Assembly: GCF_001421805.1 (NCBI RefSeq)
Contig: NZ_LMLC01000001.1
Span: forward strand, 1,054,001-1,118,000
DNA: 64,000 bases
Source of the DNA: Sphingomonas sp. Leaf34
Lineage (GTDB): Bacteria; Pseudomonadota; Alphaproteobacteria; Sphingomonadales; Sphingomonadaceae
Direction of reading: 5' to 3'
Below the pieces are notes generated by a model. That model did not search any database. It had not been told where the DNA came from and was given only the letters and a program-made list of their open reading frames with translations. Made by a program: the position numbers and the translations under genes. Shown one piece after another: positions 24,621 to 37,416 of the stretch. Position 1 is the stretch's first letter. Each line of letters opens with the position of its first letter.

Positions 24621-24707
24621 GCGGCCATGGCGGAACTGGTAGACGCGCAACGTTGAGGTCGTTGTGGGCGAAAGCCCGTGGAAGTTCGAGTCTTCTTGGC
24701 CGCACCA
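24621..24707 (+). tRNA. tRNA-Leu(GAG)
   Basis: The acceptor arms GCGGCCA and TGGCCGC pair fully. The anticodon stem CAACG/CGTTG encloses loop TTGAGGT with anticodon GAG. A long variable arm (GGGCGAAAGCCC) marks a class II tRNA, and the T arm is GGAAG-TTCGAGT-CTTCT. Discriminator A and a genomically encoded CCA end the gene at 24707. It reads leucine codons CUC and CUU. Confidence 0.95.
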
Positions 24708-25268: not shown

Positions 25269-28200
25269 TCATCGCCGACCGCCGAACAGCGCGCGCGTCG
25301 CGCCACCGATCATGGTCTGGTCGAACTTCAGCCGCATCGTCACGTACGGCCCCTGCCGCGTGTAGCGGTCGTCATCGAAGTCGCGGTCGCGGTAGCCCGA
25401 CACGTTGTAGCCCGCGCTGATCCACGTGTTGGCCGCGGGCGATACGCCGACCGAGGGACCGCCGCTCCACGACCAGGCGCCGCGCGACCAGGCATGCTGC
25501 ACCGATCCGCTCACGCCGATGTCGAACCGCGTGCCGACATCTTGGCGCAGTTCGAACCCGGTGACGTCGATATACCCGTCATATTTGTCGTCGGCGAACC
25601 GCCCCGCGACGTATTTCGCGCCGTAATACACCGTCGCCTCGGTGCCGTGGCCGAGCCCTTCGGGGCCAGTGCGATAGTTCACCGCGAGGTTGTTGATGAT
25701 CCGCGACGTCACCTGATCGCCACCGCCATAGGCGGGTACGCCGAGCGCGTTGGAGTCGGTGAACCCCGCATCTGCGCTCTCATGCCGCAGCTCGAGCCGT
25801 TCGAGTAGCGACCAGCGGCTGTCGAGCGGCCGGAAGGCGAGCGCCAGATCGGCGGTGGCATAGGTCGCGACCGCGCCGGTCGTGTCGGTGATCGTGTACG
25901 CCTTGATGCTCGACGCGAGCGTCTTGCCCTGTCCCAAGGTGCGCAGGAAGTTGGTGGTGATCCCCCAGCGATCGCCGCTGTCGGCGTTGCGGTATTCGAG
26001 CCGCCCGTTCACCGACCAGCGCGCCTGGCGGTAGGTCGCCCCCAGCGTCACCGCGGCGTAGTCGCCGTTGGTCTGGTCCTGCCCGACATAGCCGCCCGAG
26101 GTGACCGGCTGGAACGCGTTGACCACCGCACCGTCGGGGATCTGGCCCTTCAGCGTGTTGCTCGCGTCGAGCGTCCCGTCGACGGTCCAGTTCTTGCCGA
26201 GCGGCACCGACTGGCTGAGGCCGTATTGCGCATAGGTCCGCGCGCCGTTTTCCCCGATCGCCTGCTGGTTGAGCGTGCTCATCAGCTTGGCGCCGGTCCA
26301 GGGCGCGACGTCGACGCCGAACTGCTTGGTATGCGCGACATAGCCGTCGCCATTGGCGATCTCATAGCCACCGATCAGGCGGATGCCGGGCTTGATCCGG
26401 TAGGCGAGCTGGATCTGGTGGCGGATCGGGAAGTCGACGCTGTCGCTGGCGCCACCCGGTGCGAACTGCGTCTGGCCGGACAGCGTCACCTTGTCGCCGA
26501 ACAGCAACTGCGTTCCGCCGAGCGTCAGCAGGCGGCTATCGCGATCCCTGCCATCCATGCCGCGATCGGATGCGTACTGCCCACCGACGAAGATCGTGCC
26601 CGTGTCGCGGCGATATTCGACGCGAACGTCGGCAGCGGTGCGCGTACCGGCACTGTCGAGCTGTTGCTGGTGCCATACCACTCCGGTCAGGCTGATCCGG
26701 TCGGTCAGCCGCAGCCGGCCGTCGAGACCGAATTTGCGCGTCCCCGCCTCGACCAGATTCTGCTGGCCGACACCGAAGGCGGTATCCTGCTGCCGGGCAT
26801 AAGCGAGCAGGTCGAGCTTCGTCCCGTGGTGATCGACCTCGGCGAGATAGGCGAGACCTTCGCCGAGCCCCGCCCGGCCGCCCTTGGCGATCTCGCCGCG
26901 CAATTCGGTGGTGGCGGTCACGCGCGCCTTGATATCCGCGCCGAGCACGGTGGCCTTGCCGACGGTCTCGTCGCGAATGACCGCGGCGCCGACCTCGACG
27001 CGTCCGTTCGCCAGCTTGGTCGCGACGCGCGCGGCGGCGGCGAGCTTGGCCGACCGGCCGCCCTCGACCTCATAGTCCGCGACGATGAACACCGGATTGA
27101 GGCTGCTGTCGCGGCTCAGGATCGGCTGGCGAAAGCGCACCGTGCCCATCGCCGTGTCGATGTCGTAATCGATGTGGCGCGTCAGCTGCGTGCTCGCAAG
27201 GATCAGCTCCGAACGGAACCGGTCGCGCGTCTCGAGCCGCAGCTTGTCGCTGTTCGGCACGATGTTGCGCCCCGCCAGACGGTATGGACCGCTCAGGCCG
27301 TTGCCCTGGATCTCGTCACGCGAATACAGCGTGTCGGTATGCGCCGCGAAGCCGGTCGCGCGAACCCGCTTGCCCTCATAGGCGGTCTTGATACCGTTGA
27401 GCGTGCGGTTGTAGCGGGTGAGCTGCGTGTCGGTGAAGCCGGTCTCGAAATCGCCGAACAGCGCGTAAAATTCGCGACGCTCGAGCCGCAGATACAGCTT
27501 CCGCCGGGTCGCCGCATCATAGCCCTGGCGCGAACCATCGCCGTACACGGTGTAATAGCGATCGGGATCGATCGTGCCGAGCAGCCCGCGCGCAGGATCG
27601 TATTTGCGGTCGCTGTCATACGCGATCGTCGCCAGCCACGACCCCTTGACGCGCCCCTTGGCGTAGAAGGCGAGCTGGCCATCGGTGATCACGCTGCCGC
27701 GCTGCGCGCGTGGCAGGCCCGACTGGCGCTTGCTTAGCATGTCGTAGCCGACCGAGCCCGCGCCGAAACCGACCACGACCCACTGCTTGGCGGCGGCGGC
27801 GAGCCAGGCGCGCACCTCGTTGCGGTGGATGACCTTGTCCTCGGTCAGCGCGACGACGACGTGGACCGCGCCGGCCTGCGTGGTCGGCTGGAGCGTGAGG
27901 AAGGCGAGCCCGTCGTCGCCGACCACCAGCGCGGTGGTGGCGGAGCGTTCGCGCCCGGCGAGGTGGCGACCCTGTTCGAGCTCGGCCTCGACCGCGGCGG
28001 TATAAGGCTGGTCGACGGTGAACGGCACCAGCGTACCCGCGCGGACCGGGCGCCCGGTCTTGTCGGTCACGCGGACCGCGATCAGCGGGCGGGTCAGCCC
28101 GTCGGCGACGAGCCGGCTGCTGGCGGCGTCGAACACCGCGCGGACGCCGGCGCCGGAATAATGGATCGTCCGGTCGAGGATCTTCACGACGCTCCCGTCG

Positions 28201-30284
28201 GCGGCGAGGACGCGCGCCTGGAGCCTGTTGTCACCGTCGACCAGCGGGATGCCGGTCCAGCGCGAGACTGCGATCTTCGTACCATCGCGCGCGTCGGTGC
28301 CGTCGAACGCGAGCGGTTCGACCTGCTTGCCGTTGATCGTCAGCGCGACGCGCTGGCCTGGCCCGTGCTTGACGACCGCCCGGACGATCGGCGCGCGCGG
28401 GTTGTGGTCGGCGAGGGGGAACAGCCAGTCGACCCCTTCTGTCTGCGCGCCCGCCAGCCAATCGCGGCTACCGGCAGCGGTCGCGTCGTCGAGGATCGCG
28501 ACGGGCAGGCCGGCGTCGGCGGCGGCGGTCTTGCCGGTCGGCTTGAGCTGGAAATCGACGCGTTTGAGCAGGCCTCCATCCCCCTCGACAAAGCGCGAGA
28601 TCGGGCTGTTCGCCTGGCGCGTATCGATGTCGCAGGCGACCGGCGCATGCGTCGCAGGGATGCTGGAGGTGTCGATCTGGACAACGTGCCGTCCGGCTCG
28701 GACCCCCTCGAAATGGTACAGCCCGTCGCGATCGGTAACGACGAAGGTGCCGTCTTCCATCAACAGCCGGATTCCAGCCACGCCCTTGCGCTTGTCGACC
28801 GGATCGCCACAATTGCCCTCGGTCACCCGGCCGATGATCGTCATCGCATCGGTGAACAGCAGCGGACGCAGCCGCACGGAGGCGGCAGCTTCGTTGCTGG
28901 TGATGGTGCCCTGCCCGGCGACCCGCGCGCGATTGAGTGCCTCACCGGTGGGTGCGCCCGGGGCGATGCTGACGACGTATTTCAGCTCGGTCGAGGCGCC
29001 CGCGGCAAGCACGGGGATGACGAAATCGAGATTGCGGCCATCGGACGACACGGTCGGCTCGTCCCCGCCCCGCGCGGAATTGCGTTCGTAGCGCAGGCCG
29101 CGCGGCAGCGTGTCGGCGACGTGCAGCCCGCGGGCAGGGACCGAGTCCCGGTTGGTGATGCGGAGCAGATACTGGACGAAATCACCCGGCGATGCCTCGC
29201 GCACCGAGGCGACTTTCGTGAGCAACAGCGTGCCCGCGCCGGGGCTGTCGAGCGGGATGTCGGCGGAGAAAGGCTCGGGCGTGGACAACGTCAGCGCGCC
29301 GCCGAAACTCGTATCGTTGAGGATGAAGCCGCGCCCCTGCCGGTCCTTCAGCGCGGCCAGCGTGGCGCGATCGACGGTGGACGGCGCGGTATAGGTTCCG
29401 GGCGGCGCGACCTTCAGGCGATACCGTCCCGGCGCGGTCAGCGGGAAGCGATATCGCCCAGCCTCGCCCGGATACACACGGCCGCTCGCGTCGGTCACGC
29501 TCTCGCCGGTGACGACCGTCGAAGGATAGCGGCTGACGCCGTCGTCGCCGAACACCGTGGCGGGCTGGCCAGTCTCGTCGACCAGCGACACGGTCGTGCC
29601 GTCGACCAGCGCGCCGGTCCGCGAATCGAACGTGTAGCCGGCCGGATCGATCAGCAGCGACGCCATCGAGGCGAGGCTGTAGCCGTCCTCGGCGAACCCC
29701 AGCTTGATCGTCGCGCCGCGCAGGTTGCGGATGTCGCACGCGGCGAGTTCGGGGTGCTTGCCGGTTGCGCTGGCGGGGATGCCACCGGCGAAGATGCCGC
29801 TGTCGACCGCGGTTTCGGTCAGTGTCAGCGTCGTGTGAAGGGTGCCGACATCGACGGCGATGGCCGACGTCTCGCGCACCGCCGGATCATGATTGCCGGC
29901 CTGGTTGTCGAGCACCAGGATCATGTCGGCATAGATGTCGATCGCCGCGACCCAAGGCGATGCGGCATAGGTCGCGGCATCGATCGGCGCAGGCGTGAAC
30001 AGGAAGCTGGGGGTGGTCTGGCATGTGGCGCCGGTCATCGCGTAATTGGGCGGCGGCAGACGAAAGGTGAGCGTCGTCGGACGCTTCGCCCGGTTTACGT
30101 CGAGCACGACCGTGTTGGACGGGATCGCCCGTACCCCCGACGCGCTGCCCGCGTCGTCGAACGACAGCGTCGCAGTATTCTGGACCCGCGTCTGGGCGGC
30201 CGCCGGCGCAATGCCGATGACGAGCCCGAGCATCAGCGTCAGGAGCAAGGCGCACAGGCGCAAGAGGCGGCGGAATCTGGGCAT
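25269..30284 (-). CDS. Giant exported DUF11 protein with predicted C-terminal outer-membrane barrel
   Basis: A 1671-residue protein. The signal peptide ends APAAA at residue 30. Next comes a short module, TRVQNTATLSFDDAGS to SNTVVLDVNRA, shared with two upstream gene products. About residues 350-470 form a DUF11-type domain (SPGDFVQYLLRITNRDSVPA, VADTLPRGLRYERNSA). About 478-545 form a carboxypeptidase-regulatory/SdrD-B-like fold (IIGRVTEGNCGDPVDKRKGV, DRDGLYHFEGVRAGRHVVQI). From about residue 830 to the end the sequence alternates aromatic and polar strands (REFYALFGDFETGF, RHIDYDIDTAMGTVRFRQPI), as expected for a large barrel, ending YVTMRLKFDQT. No TonB box or plug domain is seen. Export of the neighbouring DUF11 proteins is a hypothesis only. 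Confidence 0.8.
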   Translation of the reverse strand: MPRFRRLLRLCALLLTLMLGLVIGIAPAAAQTRVQNTATLSFDDAGSASGVRAIPSNTVVLDVNRAKRPTTLTFRLPPPNYAMTGATCQTTPSFLFTPAPIDAATYAASPWVAAIDIYADMILVLDNQAGNHDPAVRETSAIAVDVGTLHTTLTLTETAVDSGIFAGGIPASATGKHPELAACDIRNLRGATIKLGFAEDGYSLASMASLLIDPAGYTFDSRTGALVDGTTVSLVDETGQPATVFGDDGVSRYPSTVVTGESVTDASGRVYPGEAGRYRFPLTAPGRYRLKVAPPGTYTAPSTVDRATLAALKDRQGRGFILNDTSFGGALTLSTPEPFSADIPLDSPGAGTLLLTKVASVREASPGDFVQYLLRITNRDSVPARGLHVADTLPRGLRYERNSARGGDEPTVSSDGRNLDFVIPVLAAGASTELKYVVSIAPGAPTGEALNRARVAGQGTITSNEAAASVRLRPLLFTDAMTIIGRVTEGNCGDPVDKRKGVAGIRLLMEDGTFVVTDRDGLYHFEGVRAGRHVVQIDTSSIPATHAPVACDIDTRQANSPISRFVEGDGGLLKRVDFQLKPTGKTAAADAGLPVAILDDATAAGSRDWLAGAQTEGVDWLFPLADHNPRAPIVRAVVKHGPGQRVALTINGKQVEPLAFDGTDARDGTKIAVSRWTGIPLVDGDNRLQARVLAADGSVVKILDRTIHYSGAGVRAVFDAASSRLVADGLTRPLIAVRVTDKTGRPVRAGTLVPFTVDQPYTAAVEAELEQGRHLAGRERSATTALVVGDDGLAFLTLQPTTQAGAVHVVVALTEDKVIHRNEVRAWLAAAAKQWVVVGFGAGSVGYDMLSKRQSGLPRAQRGSVITDGQLAFYAKGRVKGSWLATIAYDSDRKYDPARGLLGTIDPDRYYTVYGDGSRQGYDAATRRKLYLRLERREFYALFGDFETGFTDTQLTRYNRTLNGIKTAYEGKRVRATGFAAHTDTLYSRDEIQGNGLSGPYRLAGRNIVPNSDKLRLETRDRFRSELILASTQLTRHIDYDIDTAMGTVRFRQPILSRDSSLNPVFIVADYEVEGGRSAKLAAAARVATKLANGRVEVGAAVIRDETVGKATVLGADIKARVTATTELRGEIAKGGRAGLGEGLAYLAEVDHHGTKLDLLAYARQQDTAFGVGQQNLVEAGTRKFGLDGRLRLTDRISLTGVVWHQQQLDSAGTRTAADVRVEYRRDTGTIFVGGQYASDRGMDGRDRDSRLLTLGGTQLLFGDKVTLSGQTQFAPGGASDSVDFPIRHQIQLAYRIKPGIRLIGGYEIANGDGYVAHTKQFGVDVAPWTGAKLMSTLNQQAIGENGARTYAQYGLSQSVPLGKNWTVDGTLDASNTLKGQIPDGAVVNAFQPVTSGGYVGQDQTNGDYAAVTLGATYRQARWSVNGRLEYRNADSGDRWGITTNFLRTLGQGKTLASSIKAYTITDTTGAVATYATADLALAFRPLDSRWSLLERLELRHESADAGFTDSNALGVPAYGGGDQVTSRIINNLAVNYRTGPEGLGHGTEATVYYGAKYVAGRFADDKYDGYIDVTGFELRQDVGTRFDIGVSGSVQHAWSRGAWSWSGGPSVGVSPAANTWISAGYNVSGYRDRDFDDDRYTRQGPYVTMRLKFDQTMIGGATRALFGGRR

Positions 30285-30296
30285 CAGGGGTCCGCT

Positions 30297-30325
30297 CCCG
30301 GCACGCGTCGCTCACGCGTGCCGGG
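30297..30325. promoter_or_regulatory. Inter-cistronic hairpin in the DUF11 operon
   Basis: CCCGGCACGCGT pairs perfectly with ACGCGTGCCGGG around the loop CGCTC: a 12-bp stem between the 376-residue gene and the giant gene. There is no T-tract on the transcribed side, so mRNA stabilisation or partial termination is likelier than a full terminator. Confidence 0.75.
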
Positions 30326-30357
30326 ATTGGCCTTTCCTTTCGGGTGTGAGGGTGGGT

Positions 30358-31488
30358 CTAGTTGATCGTCACGCGGAAGCTGGCGGCGACCGACGTGCTG
30401 CCGAGCAGCGTCGGGATCGTCGCCGTCACCTTCTTCGTCGAGGGATCGTACGAGCCGGTGAAGTTCGTGCCGAGGATCGCGGTCCCATTGTCGTTGGCGA
30501 TGAAGCCGGCCACCGTGCAAATCGGTGCGATGCCGGGCACGCCGATGACGATCGAGCCCGCCTGATACGTCGTATTCGCCGGGATGATGTCGGTCAGGTT
30601 GACGTTGTTCGCTGGCGTCAGCGCCGTCGCATTGGTGACGATCAGGCAATATTGCACGACCGCACCGGGGATCGCCTTGGGCGTGACGAGCCCCGAAACC
30701 GGATCCGAGATCACGATTTGCGACTTGTTCACGCTGAGCGCGACGTTGCGCGTGGTGATCTCATAGCCGAGCGACGCCCGGCCCTGACCATTATTGGCGA
30801 AGTCGAGACCGAGGCCATCGGAGTCGTTGTCGGCGAACACGATATCGACGACGTTGTCGTCGTTCAGCGCGACGCTGGCGGCCAGCGGTGCGCCCTGCGC
30901 CGCACCATCGCCCCCGGCGGCGACCTGCGTGATGAGGGTGATGCCGGCGAGCGACGCGGCCTGATCGTTCGGGATGTCCGCGACGATGAACACGACGGCC
31001 GACTGATCGGCGGGCAGTTCGTTGATGTACGTCGCGGTATCGGCGCCTGCGTCATAGGTGCCGTTGCCGTTCGAATCGACATAGATCTTGACGTTGGTCA
31101 CTTCGAAATTGTCACCGGCAAACAGGTTCTGGATCGGCAACTGGCTGGCCGACAACAGGAAGTCCTGCGTACCGTTGGTGTTGTTGGTCACCTTGAACGT
31201 CGTCACCGCCGCGGTCTGGCCGATCGCGACCTGCGTGTTGGCGGGCTGGTTGGTGGTGACGGTCAGGTTGACCTTGCGGTCGACCACGAAGCTGGTCGTG
31301 TTCGACGTGGCCGACTGCTGGACGCCGTTGACCGAATAGCTGGCCTGCGCGGTGTTGGTGACGGCCGTGCCCGCCGCTGTGCCGGCTGGCCCTGGCGCCT
31401 GCGCGCTCGCCGTATTGGTCGCGATACCAAGCGACACGACCGCGGCCGTACCGGCCATCAGCGTGCGGATTACCCCTTTTGCGTACAT
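30358..31488 (-). CDS. Exported DUF11-type protein, 376 residues
   Basis: The signal peptide runs to about residue 29 (TNTASA). The mature protein opens with the shared module GTAVTNTAQASYSVNGVQ to TSNTTSFVVDRK. A middle domain (about 85-245) holds acidic loops VDSNGNGTYDAGAD (137-150) and DNDSDGLGLD (220-229) that look like calcium sites. A C-terminal DUF11-type domain (about 250-376) contains PGAVVQYCLIVTNATALTPA and LTDIIPANTTYQAGS. The only two mature cysteines, 281 and 324, could form a disulfide. It is rich in Asn and Thr. The hairpin directly downstream suggests it may be the most abundant product of the operon. Confidence 0.82.
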   Translation of the reverse strand: MYAKGVIRTLMAGTAAVVSLGIATNTASAQAPGPAGTAAGTAVTNTAQASYSVNGVQQSATSNTTSFVVDRKVNLTVTTNQPANTQVAIGQTAAVTTFKVTNNTNGTQDFLLSASQLPIQNLFAGDNFEVTNVKIYVDSNGNGTYDAGADTATYINELPADQSAVVFIVADIPNDQAASLAGITLITQVAAGGDGAAQGAPLAASVALNDDNVVDIVFADNDSDGLGLDFANNGQGRASLGYEITTRNVALSVNKSQIVISDPVSGLVTPKAIPGAVVQYCLIVTNATALTPANNVNLTDIIPANTTYQAGSIVIGVPGIAPICTVAGFIANDNGTAILGTNFTGSYDPSTKKVTATIPTLLGSTSVAASFRVTIN

Positions 31489-31541
31489 TTCGAATTATTC
31501 CTTCTCTGTGGATTGCGAGGACTGAGTCGACGAAGGCGCCC

Positions 31542-32045
31542 TCATTTCAGGACGGCCTGGAACGCGAACTGACCTTGCGAACCGGCCGCCAACGGGCTTG
31601 CGAGGCGCCACCGGACGCTGGTGACATCGTTGGGGTTCGCCGCGCGCGTGCTGCCGTCGAGGCTGCGGACGCGCAGGGTGGCGAGCGAACCGAAAGTCTT
31701 GCCGTCGACCGACACGTCGGGCGCGGGCGAACCGGGGCTGGCAGACCGATAGGCGATCTGGCGCGGCAGCGGGTTGTCGAGCACCACGTTGCTGAGGGGC
31801 TGCGGACCCGTGTTGCGATAGGCGAGGACGAAGATGACCTTGTCGCCCGGCGTCACCTTCGATGGCTTGACCAGCGCGATCCGCGTGGTGCCATCGGCGG
31901 CGGCACTACGGCTCTCGACGAGGATGCTGCTGGTGACCTGCAACGGGCCTGCCGCAGCGGCGACCAGCGCTGCGGGGGTGGCGGCGGCAGTGGCCGCCAG
32001 GACGGCGGCAATCATCGGACGCGTGATCATGGCTATGCTCCTCAT
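31542..32045 (-). CDS. Exported single-domain DUF11-like protein, 167 residues
   Basis: The signal sequence (AAVLAATAAATPAALVAAAA) is followed by one Ig-like DUF11-type domain: TPGDKVIFVLAYRNTGPQPL, NVVLDNPLPRQIAYRSASPG, and a final LAAGSQGQFAFQAVLK strand. Start ATG 32045 overlaps the upstream gene by four bases; a second ATG at 32030 is possible. It lacks the shared N-terminal module of its neighbours. A periplasmic or surface location is inferred from the signal peptide; the function is unknown. Confidence 0.8.
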   Translation of the reverse strand: MRSIAMITRPMIAAVLAATAAATPAALVAAAAGPLQVTSSILVESRSAAADGTTRIALVKPSKVTPGDKVIFVLAYRNTGPQPLSNVVLDNPLPRQIAYRSASPGSPAPDVSVDGKTFGSLATLRVRSLDGSTRAANPNDVTSVRWRLASPLAAGSQGQFAFQAVLK

Positions 32046-33064
32046 TGGATCTTGGTCTTGAACTGGACGGTGTGGACGGCGGCGGCGGCGACCTGGCCGA
32101 GCGCGACGGCGATAGCGGGCCCCTGGGCGCTGCTCCCCTGCACGCCGGTCGCGTCGAAGCGGCCCGCGTCACCGTCCTGCGCGTCGCTCAGCGGCGCGCC
32201 ATCGAGCGTCAGGCTCCCCGCCACGAAGACGGTGCCCGCAGGAATCGGATCGACGATCCGCGCGCCGGTCACGGCGTCGGCAAAGCGCGCCTCGAGCGTG
32301 TAGGTGATCACCGAATCGCGGACCGCGGACTGCGATCCGTCGGCGGCGCGCACCGACTGTGTCTTGAACAGCGTCGGGCCGGCACTTGCAGTCGTCAGCG
32401 GCACGACGACGCTGGCCGCCGCGCCGGTCGGTCCGACCACCGCATCGCCGCCATCGTCGCCACGTCCTGCATACCCGCTGCCCGGTGCTCCCGAGCCCGT
32501 CGTCGACCGTGCCGTGATCGTGAGCGTCGCCGCCGCGCCACCGGCTGGCGCAGGATCGCCGGACGTCACGAGCACCGCGAACAGCTTGATCGACTGTCCC
32601 GGCGTGAGGACGGGCGTCAGCGCGTTGACCGGCGTCAAATCCTTGGTCGGATCATAGAGCCCGTCGCCATCGGCATCGACGACCAGGGCCTTCAGCGTGA
32701 CTGCACCCGGAATCACGCTGGCCGCGATCGCGAAGGATTCTGCGCCGTTGTTGCGGTTGGTCAGCGTCAGCGGAACGATCGTGGGCCGCGGCATCACCAC
32801 GATCGCGCCCTGCCCGTCCCGCACGAGCGCGACGTCGAGGCGTTCGGCAACGATCAGCGTCACCGTGTTCGATGCGATCGCCTGCGTCTCGCCGACCGCA
32901 TCATAGCGGAGCGCGGCCGTATTGACGATCGGCGTCCCGGCAGGCGTTTCCGCCACGGCCGGCTCCGACAGCAGCATCGCGACCGCGGCAACCAGGCCAC
33001 ACGCAACTCCGCCGTGGCATGTCAGCCGACTTGCACTGCAATTCAAGGAAATGCCCCGACCCAA
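32042..33064 (-). CDS. Exported DUF11-type protein, 340 residues, first gene of the operon
   Basis: A paralogue of the 376-residue protein. The signal peptide ends near PAVA (residue 38). The shared module GTPIVNTAALRYDAVGET to SNTVTLIVAERL follows, then a domain with NRNNGAESFAIAASVIPGAV and the acidic loop DADGDGLYDPTKD (130-142). A C-terminal DUF11-like domain has RDSVITYTLEARFADAVTGA and DPIPAGTVFVAGSL. The start is probably TTG 33064, with GGGGG five bases upstream; TTG 33046 is also possible. It overlaps the 167-residue gene by four bases. Confidence 0.8.
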   Translation of the reverse strand: MGRGISLNCSASRLTCHGGVACGLVAAVAMLLSEPAVAETPAGTPIVNTAALRYDAVGETQAIASNTVTLIVAERLDVALVRDGQGAIVVMPRPTIVPLTLTNRNNGAESFAIAASVIPGAVTLKALVVDADGDGLYDPTKDLTPVNALTPVLTPGQSIKLFAVLVTSGDPAPAGGAAATLTITARSTTGSGAPGSGYAGRGDDGGDAVVGPTGAAASVVVPLTTASAGPTLFKTQSVRAADGSQSAVRDSVITYTLEARFADAVTGARIVDPIPAGTVFVAGSLTLDGAPLSDAQDGDAGRFDATGVQGSSAQGPAIAVALGQVAAAAVHTVQFKTKIQ

Positions 33065-33309: not shown

Positions 33310-33771
33310 TCAGCGGCGCAATAGTCCACGCAAATAGGCGCGCATCGCCTGGTCACCCGCATGGCTGAGCGAAATCTCGACGCGTCGGCGATCGGCCGGA
33401 TCGATCACCCGATCGATCAGCTTGAGCTTGTGGAGATGTTCGATCCACCGCTGCGAGGTCGTGACGGGGGCGTCGGACATGCTCACCAAGGCCTTGATGT
33501 TCATCGGCTGGCGATCGTCGCGCGAGACGAACAGCGCGAGCAGCATGTCCCAGGCGGGCTCGTGGAACAGTTCGGCAGGCAGGAATTGTCGCCGCATCCG
33601 CCGGTCCGAAAGCACCGCTTCGGCACGGGCAATAAGCGCCGCTTCGCTCGGTTCATCGCCGGTCGGCTCGGGATCGGCAGCATGGGCCACGCGACCGTTG
33701 AACTCCTCAGCAACCGCCGACAATTTGGCGGTGAGATCCTTGATCAAATCGACGACCGACTCGTTCTTCAC
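33310..33771 (-). CDS. MarR-like winged-helix regulator
   Basis: A 153-residue protein from GTG 33771, with GGGGAG six bases upstream. The N-terminal third is acidic and helical. The winged helix spans about 75-150: FHEPAWDMLLALFVSRDDRQ, the recognition-helix region SDAPVTTSQRWIEHLHKLKL, and the wing IDRVIDPADRRRVEISLSHAG with the D-x-R-D/R-x-R/V pattern of MarR proteins. It lies upstream of, and in the same direction as, the DUF11 operon and is a candidate local regulator, but no operator is evident. Confidence 0.82.
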   Translation of the reverse strand: MKNESVVDLIKDLTAKLSAVAEEFNGRVAHAADPEPTGDEPSEAALIARAEAVLSDRRMRRQFLPAELFHEPAWDMLLALFVSRDDRQPMNIKALVSMSDAPVTTSQRWIEHLHKLKLIDRVIDPADRRRVEISLSHAGDQAMRAYLRGLLRR

Positions 33772-34559: not shown

Positions 34560-35672
34560 GTGCCCGCTTCCCTGCCTGCCGCTTTGCCGGCGTATCTCCC
34601 AGTGCATATCCCAGTGCATATCAATGCCGTCGGTACTGCCGTTCCCGATCATGACATCCATGCCGCGTTTATCGCCTGGGCGCGCAACCGTATTGATGCG
34701 CGATCAACCAAGGTGTTCGATCGGATGGCCTCGCGATCGGGCATCGGCCATCGCTGGTCGGTTCTGCCGCCGACCGCCGATGGTGGCTCGCCGATCGACG
34801 ATGCCGGGTTCTACGCGACCGAGCCGCATCCCGGTACCGCAGCGCGGATGACGTTATATGCCGAACATGCGCCCGATCTTGCGATCCGCGCGATCGAGGC
34901 ATTGCGCACAAAGATCGCCATCGACGGCATCACCCACTTGGTCGTCGCGAGTTGCACCGGGTTCGTCGCGCCGGGGATCGACCAGATCATCGCGCGGCGG
35001 CTCGGGCTCGCGTCCAGCGTCGAGCGACTGCTTGTCGGCTTCATGGGGTGCTATGCGGCGGTGGTCGCCTTGCGCAGCGCGCGCCACATCGTCCGGTCCG
35101 AGCCGCATGCGCGCGTTCTGGTCGTCACCGTCGAGCTCTCGACGCTGCATCTCCAGCCGGCAACCGAGATCGAGCCGCTGTTGGCGATGCTCCAGTTCGG
35201 CGATGGTGCCGCCGCCGCGCTGGTCACCGCGGCGCCGACCGGCTTTGTCCTCGGCACGCCATTCGCAGCGGCACTGCCCGAGACCGAGACGCTGATCCGC
35301 TGGGACGTCACCGACGCGGGGTTCGCGATGCACCTGTCGGGCGAGGTGCCCGGACGGATCGCGACGGCATTGGCGGATACCGCGTTTCGCACGATCGTCA
35401 GCGATGGCCAGCCGCCCGCATCGATCGACGGCTGGGCGGTGCATGCCGGCGGGCGATCGATCCTCGACGCGGTCGAACATGCAATGCAGTTGAAACCCGA
35501 TGCGCTCGATCAATCGCGCGCCGTGCTGGCGGAGAACGGCAACATGTCGTCGGCGACGCTGATGTTCGTGTTCGAACGATTGCTCGCCGGGCCGCCCGTC
35601 GCACATGGCGTCGCGCTTGCGTTCGGTCCCGGACTGGCAGCGGAGGGCTTCGGGTTCCGGAGCGCGCCATGA
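34560..35672 (+). CDS. Type III polyketide synthase (chalcone synthase-like)
   Basis: A 370-residue homodimer-type ketosynthase that extends an acyl-CoA with malonyl-CoA and cyclises the product. The catalytic triad is complete: Cys132 in VVASCTGFVAPGID, His295 in WAVHAGGRSILDAV and Asn328 in ENGNMSSAT. SRSGIGHRWSV and LQFGDGAAAALV also match the family. GTG 34560 has AAAGGA six bases upstream. The next two genes overlap it and each other. By analogy with srsABC of Streptomyces, the product may be an alkylresorcinol or alkylpyrone phenolic lipid; the substrate cannot be read from the sequence. Confidence 0.93.
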   Translation: MPASLPAALPAYLPVHIPVHINAVGTAVPDHDIHAAFIAWARNRIDARSTKVFDRMASRSGIGHRWSVLPPTADGGSPIDDAGFYATEPHPGTAARMTLYAEHAPDLAIRAIEALRTKIAIDGITHLVVASCTGFVAPGIDQIIARRLGLASSVERLLVGFMGCYAAVVALRSARHIVRSEPHARVLVVTVELSTLHLQPATEIEPLLAMLQFGDGAAAALVTAAPTGFVLGTPFAAALPETETLIRWDVTDAGFAMHLSGEVPGRIATALADTAFRTIVSDGQPPASIDGWAVHAGGRSILDAVEHAMQLKPDALDQSRAVLAENGNMSSATLMFVFERLLAGPPVAHGVALAFGPGLAAEGFGFRSAP

Positions 35673-36349
35673 CGCTCGCCCAGCGCAGCCAGGCCGAAGA
35701 ACTGATGGACGCGGACGATCTGGACGCCGCGACCTATGCCGATGTCGTCGGCGACCTCGCCACCGTCAACACCGTGACGATGGCGCGCCGCCCGACGCTC
35801 GACTTCATGGCGCGGGCGATGGCGGGACGAAGCAGCATTCGCCTGCTCGACGTCGGCTTTGGTGACGGCGACATGCTTCGCCGCATCGCGCGCTGGGCCG
35901 CGGTGCGCGGTATCGCGGCGGAGTTGGTCGGCGTCGATCTCAACCCGCGCAGCGAACAGGCGGCGCGCGCGCATGGCGGCGATATCCGCTATGTCACCGG
36001 CGACTATGCCGACCTTGCCGACGAACCCTGGGACGTCATCGTCAGCAGTCTCGTCGCGCATCACATGACCCACGATCAGCTCGTCGCGTTCCTGCGGTTC
36101 ATGGAGACGCATGCGCGCGCCGGGTGGTTCGTCAATGATCTCCACCGCCACGGGTTCGCGCATTGGGGCTTCCCGATTCTCGCCACCCTCGCACGCTGGC
36201 ATCCGATCGTGCGCCATGACGGCACGGTGTCGATCGCGCGGAGCTATCGCCCGGACGAATGGCCGCCGTTGCTCGCAGAGGCCGGCATCACCCAGGCGAA
36301 GGTCCGCCGCATCTTTCCGTTTCGGCTATGCGTCGAACGCCTGCGCTGA
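35669..36349 (+). CDS. SAM-dependent methyltransferase of the PKS operon
   Basis: A 226-residue class I methyltransferase. Motif I is LLDVGFGDGDMLRRIARW, followed by VGVDLNPRSEQAARAHGG and WDVIVSSLVAHHMTHDQLVA. It begins at ATG 35669 in an ATGA overlap with the polyketide synthase. It probably methylates the PKS product, by O- or C-methylation, with no sequence basis for choosing. It overlaps the FAD gene by 22 bp. Confidence 0.88.
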   Translation: MTLAQRSQAEELMDADDLDAATYADVVGDLATVNTVTMARRPTLDFMARAMAGRSSIRLLDVGFGDGDMLRRIARWAAVRGIAAELVGVDLNPRSEQAARAHGGDIRYVTGDYADLADEPWDVIVSSLVAHHMTHDQLVAFLRFMETHARAGWFVNDLHRHGFAHWGFPILATLARWHPIVRHDGTVSIARSYRPDEWPPLLAEAGITQAKVRRIFPFRLCVERLR

Positions 36350-37416
36350 TCGTCGGTGGCGGGCTCGCCGGCGCTGCGACCGCCATCGGACTGGCCCGTG
36401 CAGGCCTGCCGCACCTGCTTGTCGAGCGATCGCGCGAGACGGGCGACGCGATCTGCGGCGGGTTTCTGAGCTGGCGAACGCTGGAGACGCTCGCCGCGCT
36501 CGGGATCGATCCGGATGGGCTGAACCCGCAGCGCGTTACGCGCGCCCGGATCTTCGCAGGCAATCGCTGCGCGGAAGCCGATCTGCCCCACCCCGCGGTC
36601 TCGGTTACGCGCCACCGGCTCGATACCGTCATGCTGGCCGAAGCCGCGCGACTGGGCACCGCCATCGAACGCGGCGTCACCGTACGCGAGATTGACGGGA
36701 CGACGGTTCGCCTCGCCGACGGCACGACGATGGCCACCGACACGCTGTTCCTGGCGAGCGGTAAGCACGACGTTCGCGGCGCGGCACGCCCCGAGGAGGC
36801 GCGCGGCGCCGACCCGACCCTGGGGATCCGGGTACGGATCGTCCCCTCGCCCACGCTGGCCCGATCGCTCGCGAGCTGCATCGAGCTGCATCTGTTCGAC
36901 CGCGGCTATGCCGGTCTGGCGCTGCAGGAGGACGGCACGGCGAATCTGTGCATGGCGGTCCACCGCTCGCGGCTTCAGGCCGCCGGCTCCCCCGCGCAAC
37001 TGCTCGAAGCGCTCGGCCGCGAAACGCCCATGCTCGGCGAATGGGTCGCGCTGATCGACCCGAAAGCCTCGATCGATGCGATCGCCAACGTGCCCTATGG
37101 CTGGCGCCAGCGCACCGGCGTCGACGCGGTGTTCCGGCTCGGCGACCAGGCGGGCGTGATCCCCTCGCTCGCCGGCGAAGGCATGGGTATTGCGCTCGCC
37201 AGCGGAGTCGCGGCCGCCACCGCCTACACACGAGGCGGCCCCGACGCTGCATCCGCATGGCAAGTGGCGTTCGCCCGCCGCCTGGCCCGCCCGATCGGTA
37301 TTGCCGGCATCGTCCGTCACATCGCCGAAAGCGAGCGCGCCGCGTGGCTGCTCCCCGTCATGCGACCGACCTTGATCCAGATCATCGCCAACGCAACCAG
37401 ACTGGGGCTATCTTGA
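36328..37416 (+). CDS. FAD-dependent oxidoreductase of the PKS operon
   Basis: A 362-residue flavoprotein of the geranylgeranyl reductase/PHBH-like group. The N-terminal FAD motif is LIVGGGLAGAATAIGLARAG, and the second FAD block is VFRLGDQAGVIPSLAGEGMG. It begins at ATG 36328, inside the methyltransferase gene. It likely hydroxylates or reduces the polyketide-derived ring or chain as the last tailoring step, as SrsC does in Streptomyces (a parallel in gene order, not proof). An upstream start at 36259 would add 23 residues of poor quality. Confidence 0.87.
   Translation: MRRTPALIVGGGLAGAATAIGLARAGLPHLLVERSRETGDAICGGFLSWRTLETLAALGIDPDGLNPQRVTRARIFAGNRCAEADLPHPAVSVTRHRLDTVMLAEAARLGTAIERGVTVREIDGTTVRLADGTTMATDTLFLASGKHDVRGAARPEEARGADPTLGIRVRIVPSPTLARSLASCIELHLFDRGYAGLALQEDGTANLCMAVHRSRLQAAGSPAQLLEALGRETPMLGEWVALIDPKASIDAIANVPYGWRQRTGVDAVFRLGDQAGVIPSLAGEGMGIALASGVAAATAYTRGGPDAASAWQVAFARRLARPIGIAGIVRHIAESERAAWLLPVMRPTLIQIIANATRLGLS

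Follow-up and report, generated by a model that had tools for sequence, protein, structure and literature searches.

A Sphingomonas operon with split DUF11/CLIPPER domains and a giant barrel protein: a candidate route to a surface fibre

Introduction

What do three small exported proteins and one giant barrel protein, encoded side by side and built from the same kind of domain, make together? The question is raised by four genes of Sphingomonas sp. Leaf34 that lie in a stretch of 64,000 nucleotides (contig NZ_LMLC01000001.1, positions 1,054,001 to 1,118,000), here called the window, whose numbering is used throughout. The proteins of 340, 167, 376, and 1671 amino acids are named S340, S167, S376, and BIG, and L followed by a number labels the locus of a relative. 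The initial annotation described four co-directional genes for exported proteins of these lengths. The four open reading frames (ORFs) are confirmed on the minus strand, and Sec-type starts are seen on all four proteins by inspection, without a prediction program.

The domain in question, DUF11, has been renamed CLIPPER and has a crystal structure, 9IFR, from 2025 (Costa et al., PMC12617251, in the part of the paper available). In our judgement, the operon probably makes a surface fibre in which split CLIPPER domains are completed by donor hairpins; the fibre would be locked by isopeptide bonds and anchored by the barrel. Complementation between the proteins is supported, short of proof; the covalent bond, the polymer, the order of the subunits, and their export are what we infer. 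The initial annotation had suggested that the barrel anchors or exports the small proteins into a fibre or adhesin. This suggestion gains partial support from the linkage of the genes, the split domains, the division of Lys, Asp, and Asn between proteins, and an adhesin-like fifth protein in some relatives.

A conserved gene order

The order S340-S167-S376-BIG occurs in all 40 of the first loci inspected. That set was extended to 120 loci, fetched from strong barrel matches in searches of the order and the family, and a strict script that accepts this order automatically found the full four-gene arrangement in 117 of them. The three misses lie at a contig end (L142), have an over-long ORF start (L100), or lack S167 at this place (L077). 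Among named genomes, 71 of 80 have all four genes in order. By their coordinates, six of the nine misses are at contig ends (L206, L235, L241, L248, L249, and L253), and in the remaining three (L214, L218, and L226) S340 was not detected, the set in L214 being S167-S376-BIG. Dispersal of the four genes was looked for in these three samples and was not found. A second S376 gene is seen inside or beside the operon in L107 and L243, which are probably the same contig, and in L108 and L112.

The residue counts given below use 191 operon rows, namely the window, the 117 loci, the 71 named loci, and two loci from outside the class (L257 and L259). Some genomes were fetched twice, and the effective number is 128 at 80% identity. 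Outside the class, related sets are present, for example, in L257-L266, and the script accepted the full order in L257 and L259. Of 296 sampled genomes of the order, 77 have the barrel part of BIG, 70 at E values under 1e-100. In the family, it is present in 133 of 397 genomes; some of these matches are fragments or only distant barrel relatives. A pattern scan of named genomes returned 433 relatives. The closest relatives among these named genomes are Sphingomonas strains, including S. faeni and S. aurantiaca, with barrels that are 90-94% identical. Within the window's genus, the distribution is patchy, with 20 listed genomes lacking a match and five having one, including the window's own genome and one fragment.

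All four proteins had been assigned DUF11 domains. This holds with the NCBIfam DUF11-repeat model TIGR01451, which scores 28-33 bits in each of them against a cut-off of 24, but the Pfam DUF11 model (PF01345) passes for BIG and S167 only. In the whole genome, TIGR01451 matches these four genes and no others, even at E <= 1, so the set looks self-contained, and no fifth subunit was found in this genome at that threshold. The regulatory-peptidase-like fold that had been proposed for BIG corresponds to a real stretch of the protein, but its scores remain under the Pfam cut-off (SdrD_B 5.5e-5 and CarboxypepD_reg 1.7e-4).

Incomplete domains and their missing hairpins

While the presence of DUF11 stands, the initial annotation had missed that the C-terminal domains of the small proteins are incomplete in the same way. 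In profile comparisons, the C-terminal parts of S340, S376, and S167 match DUF11 profiles with 90-98% probability, and in six of six comparisons the last query column falls at template position 84 of 133 when the template is a profile of intact repeats and at 98 of 134 when it is BIG's own complete domain. For the S340 gene (32042..33064, minus strand, TTG start), which encodes an exported protein with an N-terminal hairpin and a C-terminal truncated domain, the latter covers residues 228-340 (32045..32383, minus strand). It was matched by hhalign at 97.6 and 97.4%, ending at 84 of 133 and 98 of 134. The S376 gene (30358..31488, minus strand) encodes a hairpin, a middle Ig-like (immunoglobulin-like) domain, and a truncated domain at residues 248-376 (30361..30747, minus strand). 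S167 (31542..32045, minus strand), whose gene shares an ATGA overlap with that of S340 in the ORF list of the window, consists of one truncated DUF11 domain.

The same end point, at a median of 97-98 of 135, emerges when BIG's intact domain is used as the query, in those matches that reach the C-terminus (116 for S340, 34 for S376, and 31 for S167, of 118 each). This internal domain of BIG (28851..29237, minus strand) is complete, covering positions 3-109 of 114 in the Pfam model. The segment that the small proteins lack is the final beta-hairpin, which in intact repeats reads "...GSVTNTA...NNSASATVTV", and these proteins terminate directly after their last strand.

The motif that closes intact DUF11 repeats is found at the other end of three of the proteins. 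The mature N-termini of S340, S376, and BIG carry "NTA...SN" hairpins, which we call donors, just as the truncated domains are called acceptors. The donor of S340, GTPIVNTA...SNTVTLIV, spans residues 43-72 with Asn48 (32849..32938, minus strand), and that of S376, GTAVTNTA...SNTTSFVV, spans residues 40-70 with Asn45 (31279..31371, minus strand). In BIG (25269..30284, minus strand), which continues into an Ig-like stalk and a predicted C-terminal giant barrel, the donor TRVQNTA...SNTVVLDV lies immediately past the signal peptide at residues 32-64 with Asn36 (30093..30191, minus strand). By eye, the N-terminus of S167 has no such hairpin.

Donors and acceptors were also compared by a chimera test, in which donor segments were joined to an acceptor profile and ranked among 150 segments. 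For the acceptors of S340, S376, and S167, in this order, the S376 donor ranked 1, 2, and 4, and the S340 donor ranked 4, 4, and 7. The BIG donor ranked 5 and 5 for the first two acceptors and fell outside the eight segments shown for S167, where the top three places are taken by DUF11 core segments. This profile ranking lends support to complementation between donor and acceptor, short of proof.

Division of the isopeptide residues

In 9IFR, an isopeptide bond joins Lys715 and Asn806, presumably catalysed by Asp748 (PMC12617251, available part). The Asp is printed as 748 there; counting from Lys715, the aligned residue is 749. The intact domain of BIG matches this structure by phmmer (E 0.0061), with Lys357, Asp391, and Asn451 aligned to all three residues. 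In the split domains, the same residues are divided, such that the acceptors of S340 (Lys234 and Asp272) and S376 (Lys255 and Asp300) hold Lys and Asp, and the donors hold Asn.

This division is conserved. The S376 acceptor has Lys in all 191 rows and Asp in 188 (two Ala and one Glu), and the S340 acceptor has Lys in 189 (two gaps) and Asp in 187 (two Ser and two gaps). The donor Asn is present in 191 rows for S376, 188 for BIG (two Ser and one gap), and 181 for S340 (seven Ser and three gaps), the least strict of the three. S167 follows another pattern. It has Glu at the Lys column in 142 rows and Asn at the Asp column in 179, corresponding to Glu44 and Asn91 in the window, and neither Lys nor Asp occupies the tested columns in 190 of 191 rows. 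The Asn is placed opposite the acceptor Asp by profile alignment, and the column before it holds Asp in 37 of 191 rows, including the window's own protein.

One genus has lost part of the set. In L139 and L141, Asp is replaced by Ala in the S376 acceptor and by Ser in the S340 acceptor, and the donor Asn is replaced by Ser in BIG and S340; the internal domain of BIG retains Lys, Asp, and Asn. In sequence terms, this joint loss of Asp and Asn is consistent with a shared reaction. In L129, Asp is replaced by Glu in the S376 acceptor and Asn by Ser in the S340 donor.

These patterns bear on whether the proteins would be joined covalently. Complementation could do without a covalent bond, in the manner of chaperone-usher pili, and Lys, Asp, and Asn would then serve only in packing or hydrogen bonds. 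S167 would fit such an arrangement, having the same truncated fold by profile without Lys or Asp, as would the Ser found in seven S340 donors and the report that not every DUF11 domain has the bond residues (PMC12617251, available part). However, the split parts keep the three bond residues of 9IFR almost without exception, and the genus that departs from them lost Asp and Asn jointly. We regard a purely non-covalent assembly as fairly unlikely.

A tethered model of acceptor and hairpin

Whether a hairpin from one protein could complete the acceptor of another was approached with a structural model. The S376 protein of the relative L101 and the first 95 residues of its BIG were folded as a single chain, with stop codons read as a residue, and the AlphaFold model was built with 72 alignment rows. 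In this model, residues 1-350 are S376, residues ~350-400 are an unstructured linker and the BIG signal peptide, and residues 404-430 are the BIG hairpin.

All 50 of the VIA-align matches listed stop at model residues 426-438, which lie within the BIG hairpin or slightly beyond it. Among these matches, 34 of 50 begin at residues 218-225 and span one Ig-like domain, and the others span two or more. The single-domain matches include bacterial pilins, for example BcpA and SpaD, and collagen adhesins, as well as alpha-macroglobulin and AP2 mu. The CLIPPER structure itself (PDB 9IFR) aligns with 120 of 123 residues at 2.5 Å over model residues 219-432. Since the structural matches run across the disordered linker into the hairpin, the S376 acceptor and the BIG hairpin are one domain in the model, and they are predicted to form one complete Ig domain.

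Fifth proteins and a second operon type

In 18 of the 40 first loci, a fifth protein of 582-737 amino acids, with an acceptor only, is encoded beside the operon. These candidate tip proteins were selected for similarity and for a length of 560-760 amino acids, and 15 of the 18 have the Lys pattern and 15 of the 18 the Asp pattern. Seven fifth proteins were scanned with Pfam, which recognised a proprotein-convertase P-domain in four and a CshA_NR2 adhesin domain in one. The fifth protein at L063:13038-14969 has a CshA_NR2 adhesin domain together with SpaA_3 domains; both kinds of domain are characteristic of the surface proteins of Gram-positive bacteria.

Distant barrel relatives in the same family belong to a second operon type (L157, L160, L161, and L168, as well as L155, where the first gene is not in view). 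Its genes encode, in order, an acceptor-only protein of 448-538 amino acids, a protein of 598-792 amino acids with donor and acceptor, a donor protein of 740-978 amino acids, and a barrel protein of 1166-1432 amino acids with no visible donor. For two of the acceptor-only proteins, the Pfam DUF11 match (1-84 and 8-84 of 114) stops a single residue short of the C-terminal end. C-terminal acceptors of this kind were picked out by a script in 28 cases: 12 in second-type relatives, 11 in loci outside the family, and five in tip proteins. At other loci (L153, L158, L159, L162-L165, and L167), a giant DUF11-repeat protein of 2000-2900 amino acids adjoins the barrel relative. These giants are perhaps a one-piece form of the same fibre. 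Some of them end, by eye, in an OmpA-like domain.

The second operon type also speaks to an arrangement in which no polymer would form. S340 and S376 hold donor and acceptor in one chain, so each could fill its own acceptor in cis, as in a circularly permuted domain, leaving only S167 and BIG to pair in trans; the numbers of donors and acceptors balance in this case too. In the model of L101, however, it is the BIG hairpin and not that of S376 that occupies the S376 acceptor, as judged from the match ranges in a tethered chain, and the second operon type contains acceptor-only and donor-only proteins that are incapable of cis completion. We consider such self-completion quite improbable.

Points against complementation

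Several observations weigh against complementation in trans. The first concern the hairpins. Profiles of the hairpin alone (33-41 columns) gave E values of 0.04-0.44 in five comparisons in the right register, which are not significant, and a sixth comparison aligned at the wrong place. A control window, residues 150-190 of S340, did better than the hairpins (E 0.024). A hidden Markov model (HMM) of the hairpin only is weak, reaching at least 5 bits at the N-terminus in 10 of 118 S340 and 3 of 118 S376 proteins; this model, which is too short, gave 0 of 118 for BIG and for S167, with a background of 1 in 587 ORFs. In the chimera test, two segments that are not donors (BIG 225 and S340 246) score like donors.

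Co-evolution adds no support. Mean-field direct coupling analysis (DCA) of the 191 operon rows singled out no donor-acceptor pair, and nothing between the S376 acceptor and the BIG donor exceeds Z 6. Good scores came from the positive control, in which the core and hairpin of BIG were compared, but also from pairs not expected to touch, and DCA was dropped as uninformative.

Other points concern the model and the bond residues. The ~50-residue tether between the partners favours the joined fold, and the bound BIG hairpin has a predicted local distance difference test score (pLDDT) of only ~64-72. The own hairpin of S376 is well ordered (pLDDT ~96) with no partner in trans. In L139 and L141, which count as one event, the S376 donor retains Asn though both acceptors lost Asp. 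The S340 donor has Ser with Lys and Asp intact in both acceptors in L064, L145, L147, and L259, and in L064 the internal domain of BIG does not have the bond residues in the aligned columns.

Some of these observations would suit ordinary surface proteins, in which the short DUF11 domains are stable alone, the hairpin is part of the next domain in the same protein, and the barrel is an unrelated anchor. The confident ordering of the S376 hairpin without a partner, the lack of significance of the hairpin-alone profiles, and the missing co-evolution signal all fit such proteins. Set against this are the common truncation in three families, the strict linkage of the genes, and the division of the active residues between proteins, and we judge it very unlikely that these are ordinary, independent surface proteins.

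The predicted barrel of BIG

The last 843 residues of BIG (25269..27800, minus strand) had been described as about 840 residues of barrel-like strands, and AlphaFold2 bears this out by predicting a strand-rich outer-membrane barrel. The model has a mean pLDDT of 79 and a predicted template modelling score (pTM) of 0.77. It contains 39 strands of at least six residues, not counting a small plug-like insert (model residues 186-223).

By their titles, all 25 Foldseek matches at E <= 1e-5 are outer-membrane proteins or complexes. Foldseek and VIA-align group ushers, LptD, SlpA, AlgE, and other barrels at like rank, and SprA of type 9 secretion matches by Foldseek at E 5.1e-5 with a TM-score of 0.18. 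By sequence, the barrel stands apart. No PDB chain matches it by sequence profile at E <= 10, and no Pfam or NCBIfam model covers it at E <= 1.

The structural matches suggest that BIG might be mainly an usher-like exporter, with the fibre released or only loosely held. This alternative concerns the barrel only and is compatible with a fibre built by donor-hairpin complementation. The best VIA-align matches include the ushers FimD and PapC (Z ~10-12.7), and an insert resembling a plug is present in the model. However, AlgE, VDAC, and Tom40 tie with them within ~1-2 Z units, BIG itself bears a donor hairpin, and the Pfam usher model (PF00577) has no match in the genome, with a positive E. coli control, or in a Pfam scan of BIG. 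BIG was not accepted as a member of the usher family, as neither of these two scans gave a sequence match, and we regard a mainly exporting BIG as unlikely. Among seven other carriers, an usher match occurs elsewhere in the genome of one.

Helpers of other pilus systems were also sought. The PapD-like chaperone (PF00345) has no match in the genome, with a positive E. coli control, or in the four proteins, and the sortase model (PF04203) has none in the genome, with a control that was positive in three genomes.

Proposed assembly and known systems

In the assembly that we propose, S340, S167, and S376 would each present a C-terminal CLIPPER domain minus its last hairpin, and S340, S376, and BIG would each begin with the matching hairpin immediately after the signal peptide. 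Once the proteins have been exported by Sec, each hairpin would enter the acceptor of the following protein in the chain. The acceptor's Lys and Asp and the hairpin's Asn might then form a spontaneous interchain isopeptide bond, as they do within an intact CLIPPER domain. The likely chain would be BIG at the base, then S376 as the repeating and proposed main subunit, given its invariant donor Asn and acceptor Lys, then S340, and, where present, the adhesin-like fifth protein at the tip. The barrel of BIG would anchor the base to the outer membrane and may pass subunits. As an acceptor without bond residues, S167 is probably a chaperone or a chain end, either shielding donor hairpins in the periplasm or capping the chain. 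The less strict Asn of the S340 donor would suit pairing with S167.

Chaperone-usher pili (type 1 and P) resemble this assembly in the donor-strand complementation of Ig-like subunits and in the use of a large outer-membrane barrel. They differ in that here no usher or PapD match is found, the donor is a hairpin, the acceptor has bond residues, and the barrel protein has a donor of its own. The type V pili found in Bacteroidota and the sortase pili of Gram-positive bacteria are likewise surface fibres made of Ig-like subunits, and isopeptide bonds occur in some of them. Type V pili need lipoprotein processing and a protease, and Gram-positive pili need a sortase. Unlike type V pilins, the Sphingomonas proteins have signal peptides that end, by inspection, in A-x-A type sites with no lipobox cysteine. 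Unlike sortase substrates, the small proteins end right after their last strand, in a genome with no sortase match.

SpyTag/SpyCatcher was made in the laboratory from a CnaB domain. As in that system and related split isopeptide pairs (PMC6539128), the halves of a split Ig-like domain would join by a spontaneous isopeptide bond. The Sphingomonas system would instead be a natural one of CnaA-like type, and its Asn would sit on the donor.

CLIPPER (PF01345, 9IFR) is the same domain family, and the intact domain of BIG has its Lys, Asp, and Asn (PMC12617251, available part). The bonds described in that part lie within one chain, whereas here the domain is shared by two proteins, so the bond would join chains; the word "split" is absent from the paper's main text. 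Archaeal threads of Sulfolobus combine donor-strand complementation with a proposed intersubunit isopeptide bond (PMC9715654, available part), but their bond runs from an N-terminal amino group to an Asn two subunits away, and there is no outer membrane. The main text of that paper contains no word starting with DUF.

Two further leads were set aside. The paper on type 11 secretion that names DUF11 concerns, in the part available, DUF560 and DUF1194 and has no bearing here. In F-ENA appendages, the available part of the source places DUF11 in the anchor protein only.

The system as a whole had been called possibly undescribed. This stands within the searched libraries only, and DUF11 itself is now described as CLIPPER. 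The literature searched, with bioRxiv and most subscription papers outside its coverage, yielded no paper on this operon or on a divided DUF11/CLIPPER domain; the one on archaeal threads comes nearest. Judged from sequence, the new point appears to be where DUF11 is cut and that the domain is divided between proteins, the DUF11 fold and bond being known from CLIPPER.

Neighbouring genes

A MarR-like gene lies upstream of S340 (33310-33771, minus strand), below the Pfam cut-off. It was rejected as a linked regulator, as a homologue occupies the same place in 1 of 117 loci and two loci have any hit. A tRNA-Leu (gag) gene is found at 24621-24707 (plus strand), just past the end of the operon. At 34560-37416 (plus strand), there is a row of genes that, by eye and from their motifs, appear to encode a type III polyketide synthase, a methyltransferase, and a FAD-dependent enzyme.

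Significance

Our confidence is evenly balanced on a bolder, joint claim. The operon may be a natural counterpart of SpyTag/SpyCatcher, a sortase-free Gram-negative fibre with autocatalytic interchain bonds and a catalytically dead S167 chaperone, and its giant outer-membrane barrel may belong to a family without a Pfam or NCBIfam model. In this reading, polymerisation by hairpin insertion would start from the donor hairpin of the barrel protein, and S167 would hold donors in an unreacted state before export. If the proposed assembly is true, outer-membrane bacteria would have a new covalent route to pilus building that uses neither a sortase nor a classical usher. The operon would then also supply natural split isopeptide pairs for protein ligation, possibly with a built-in off-switch protein, and many operons of DUF11 proteins would gain a testable role.

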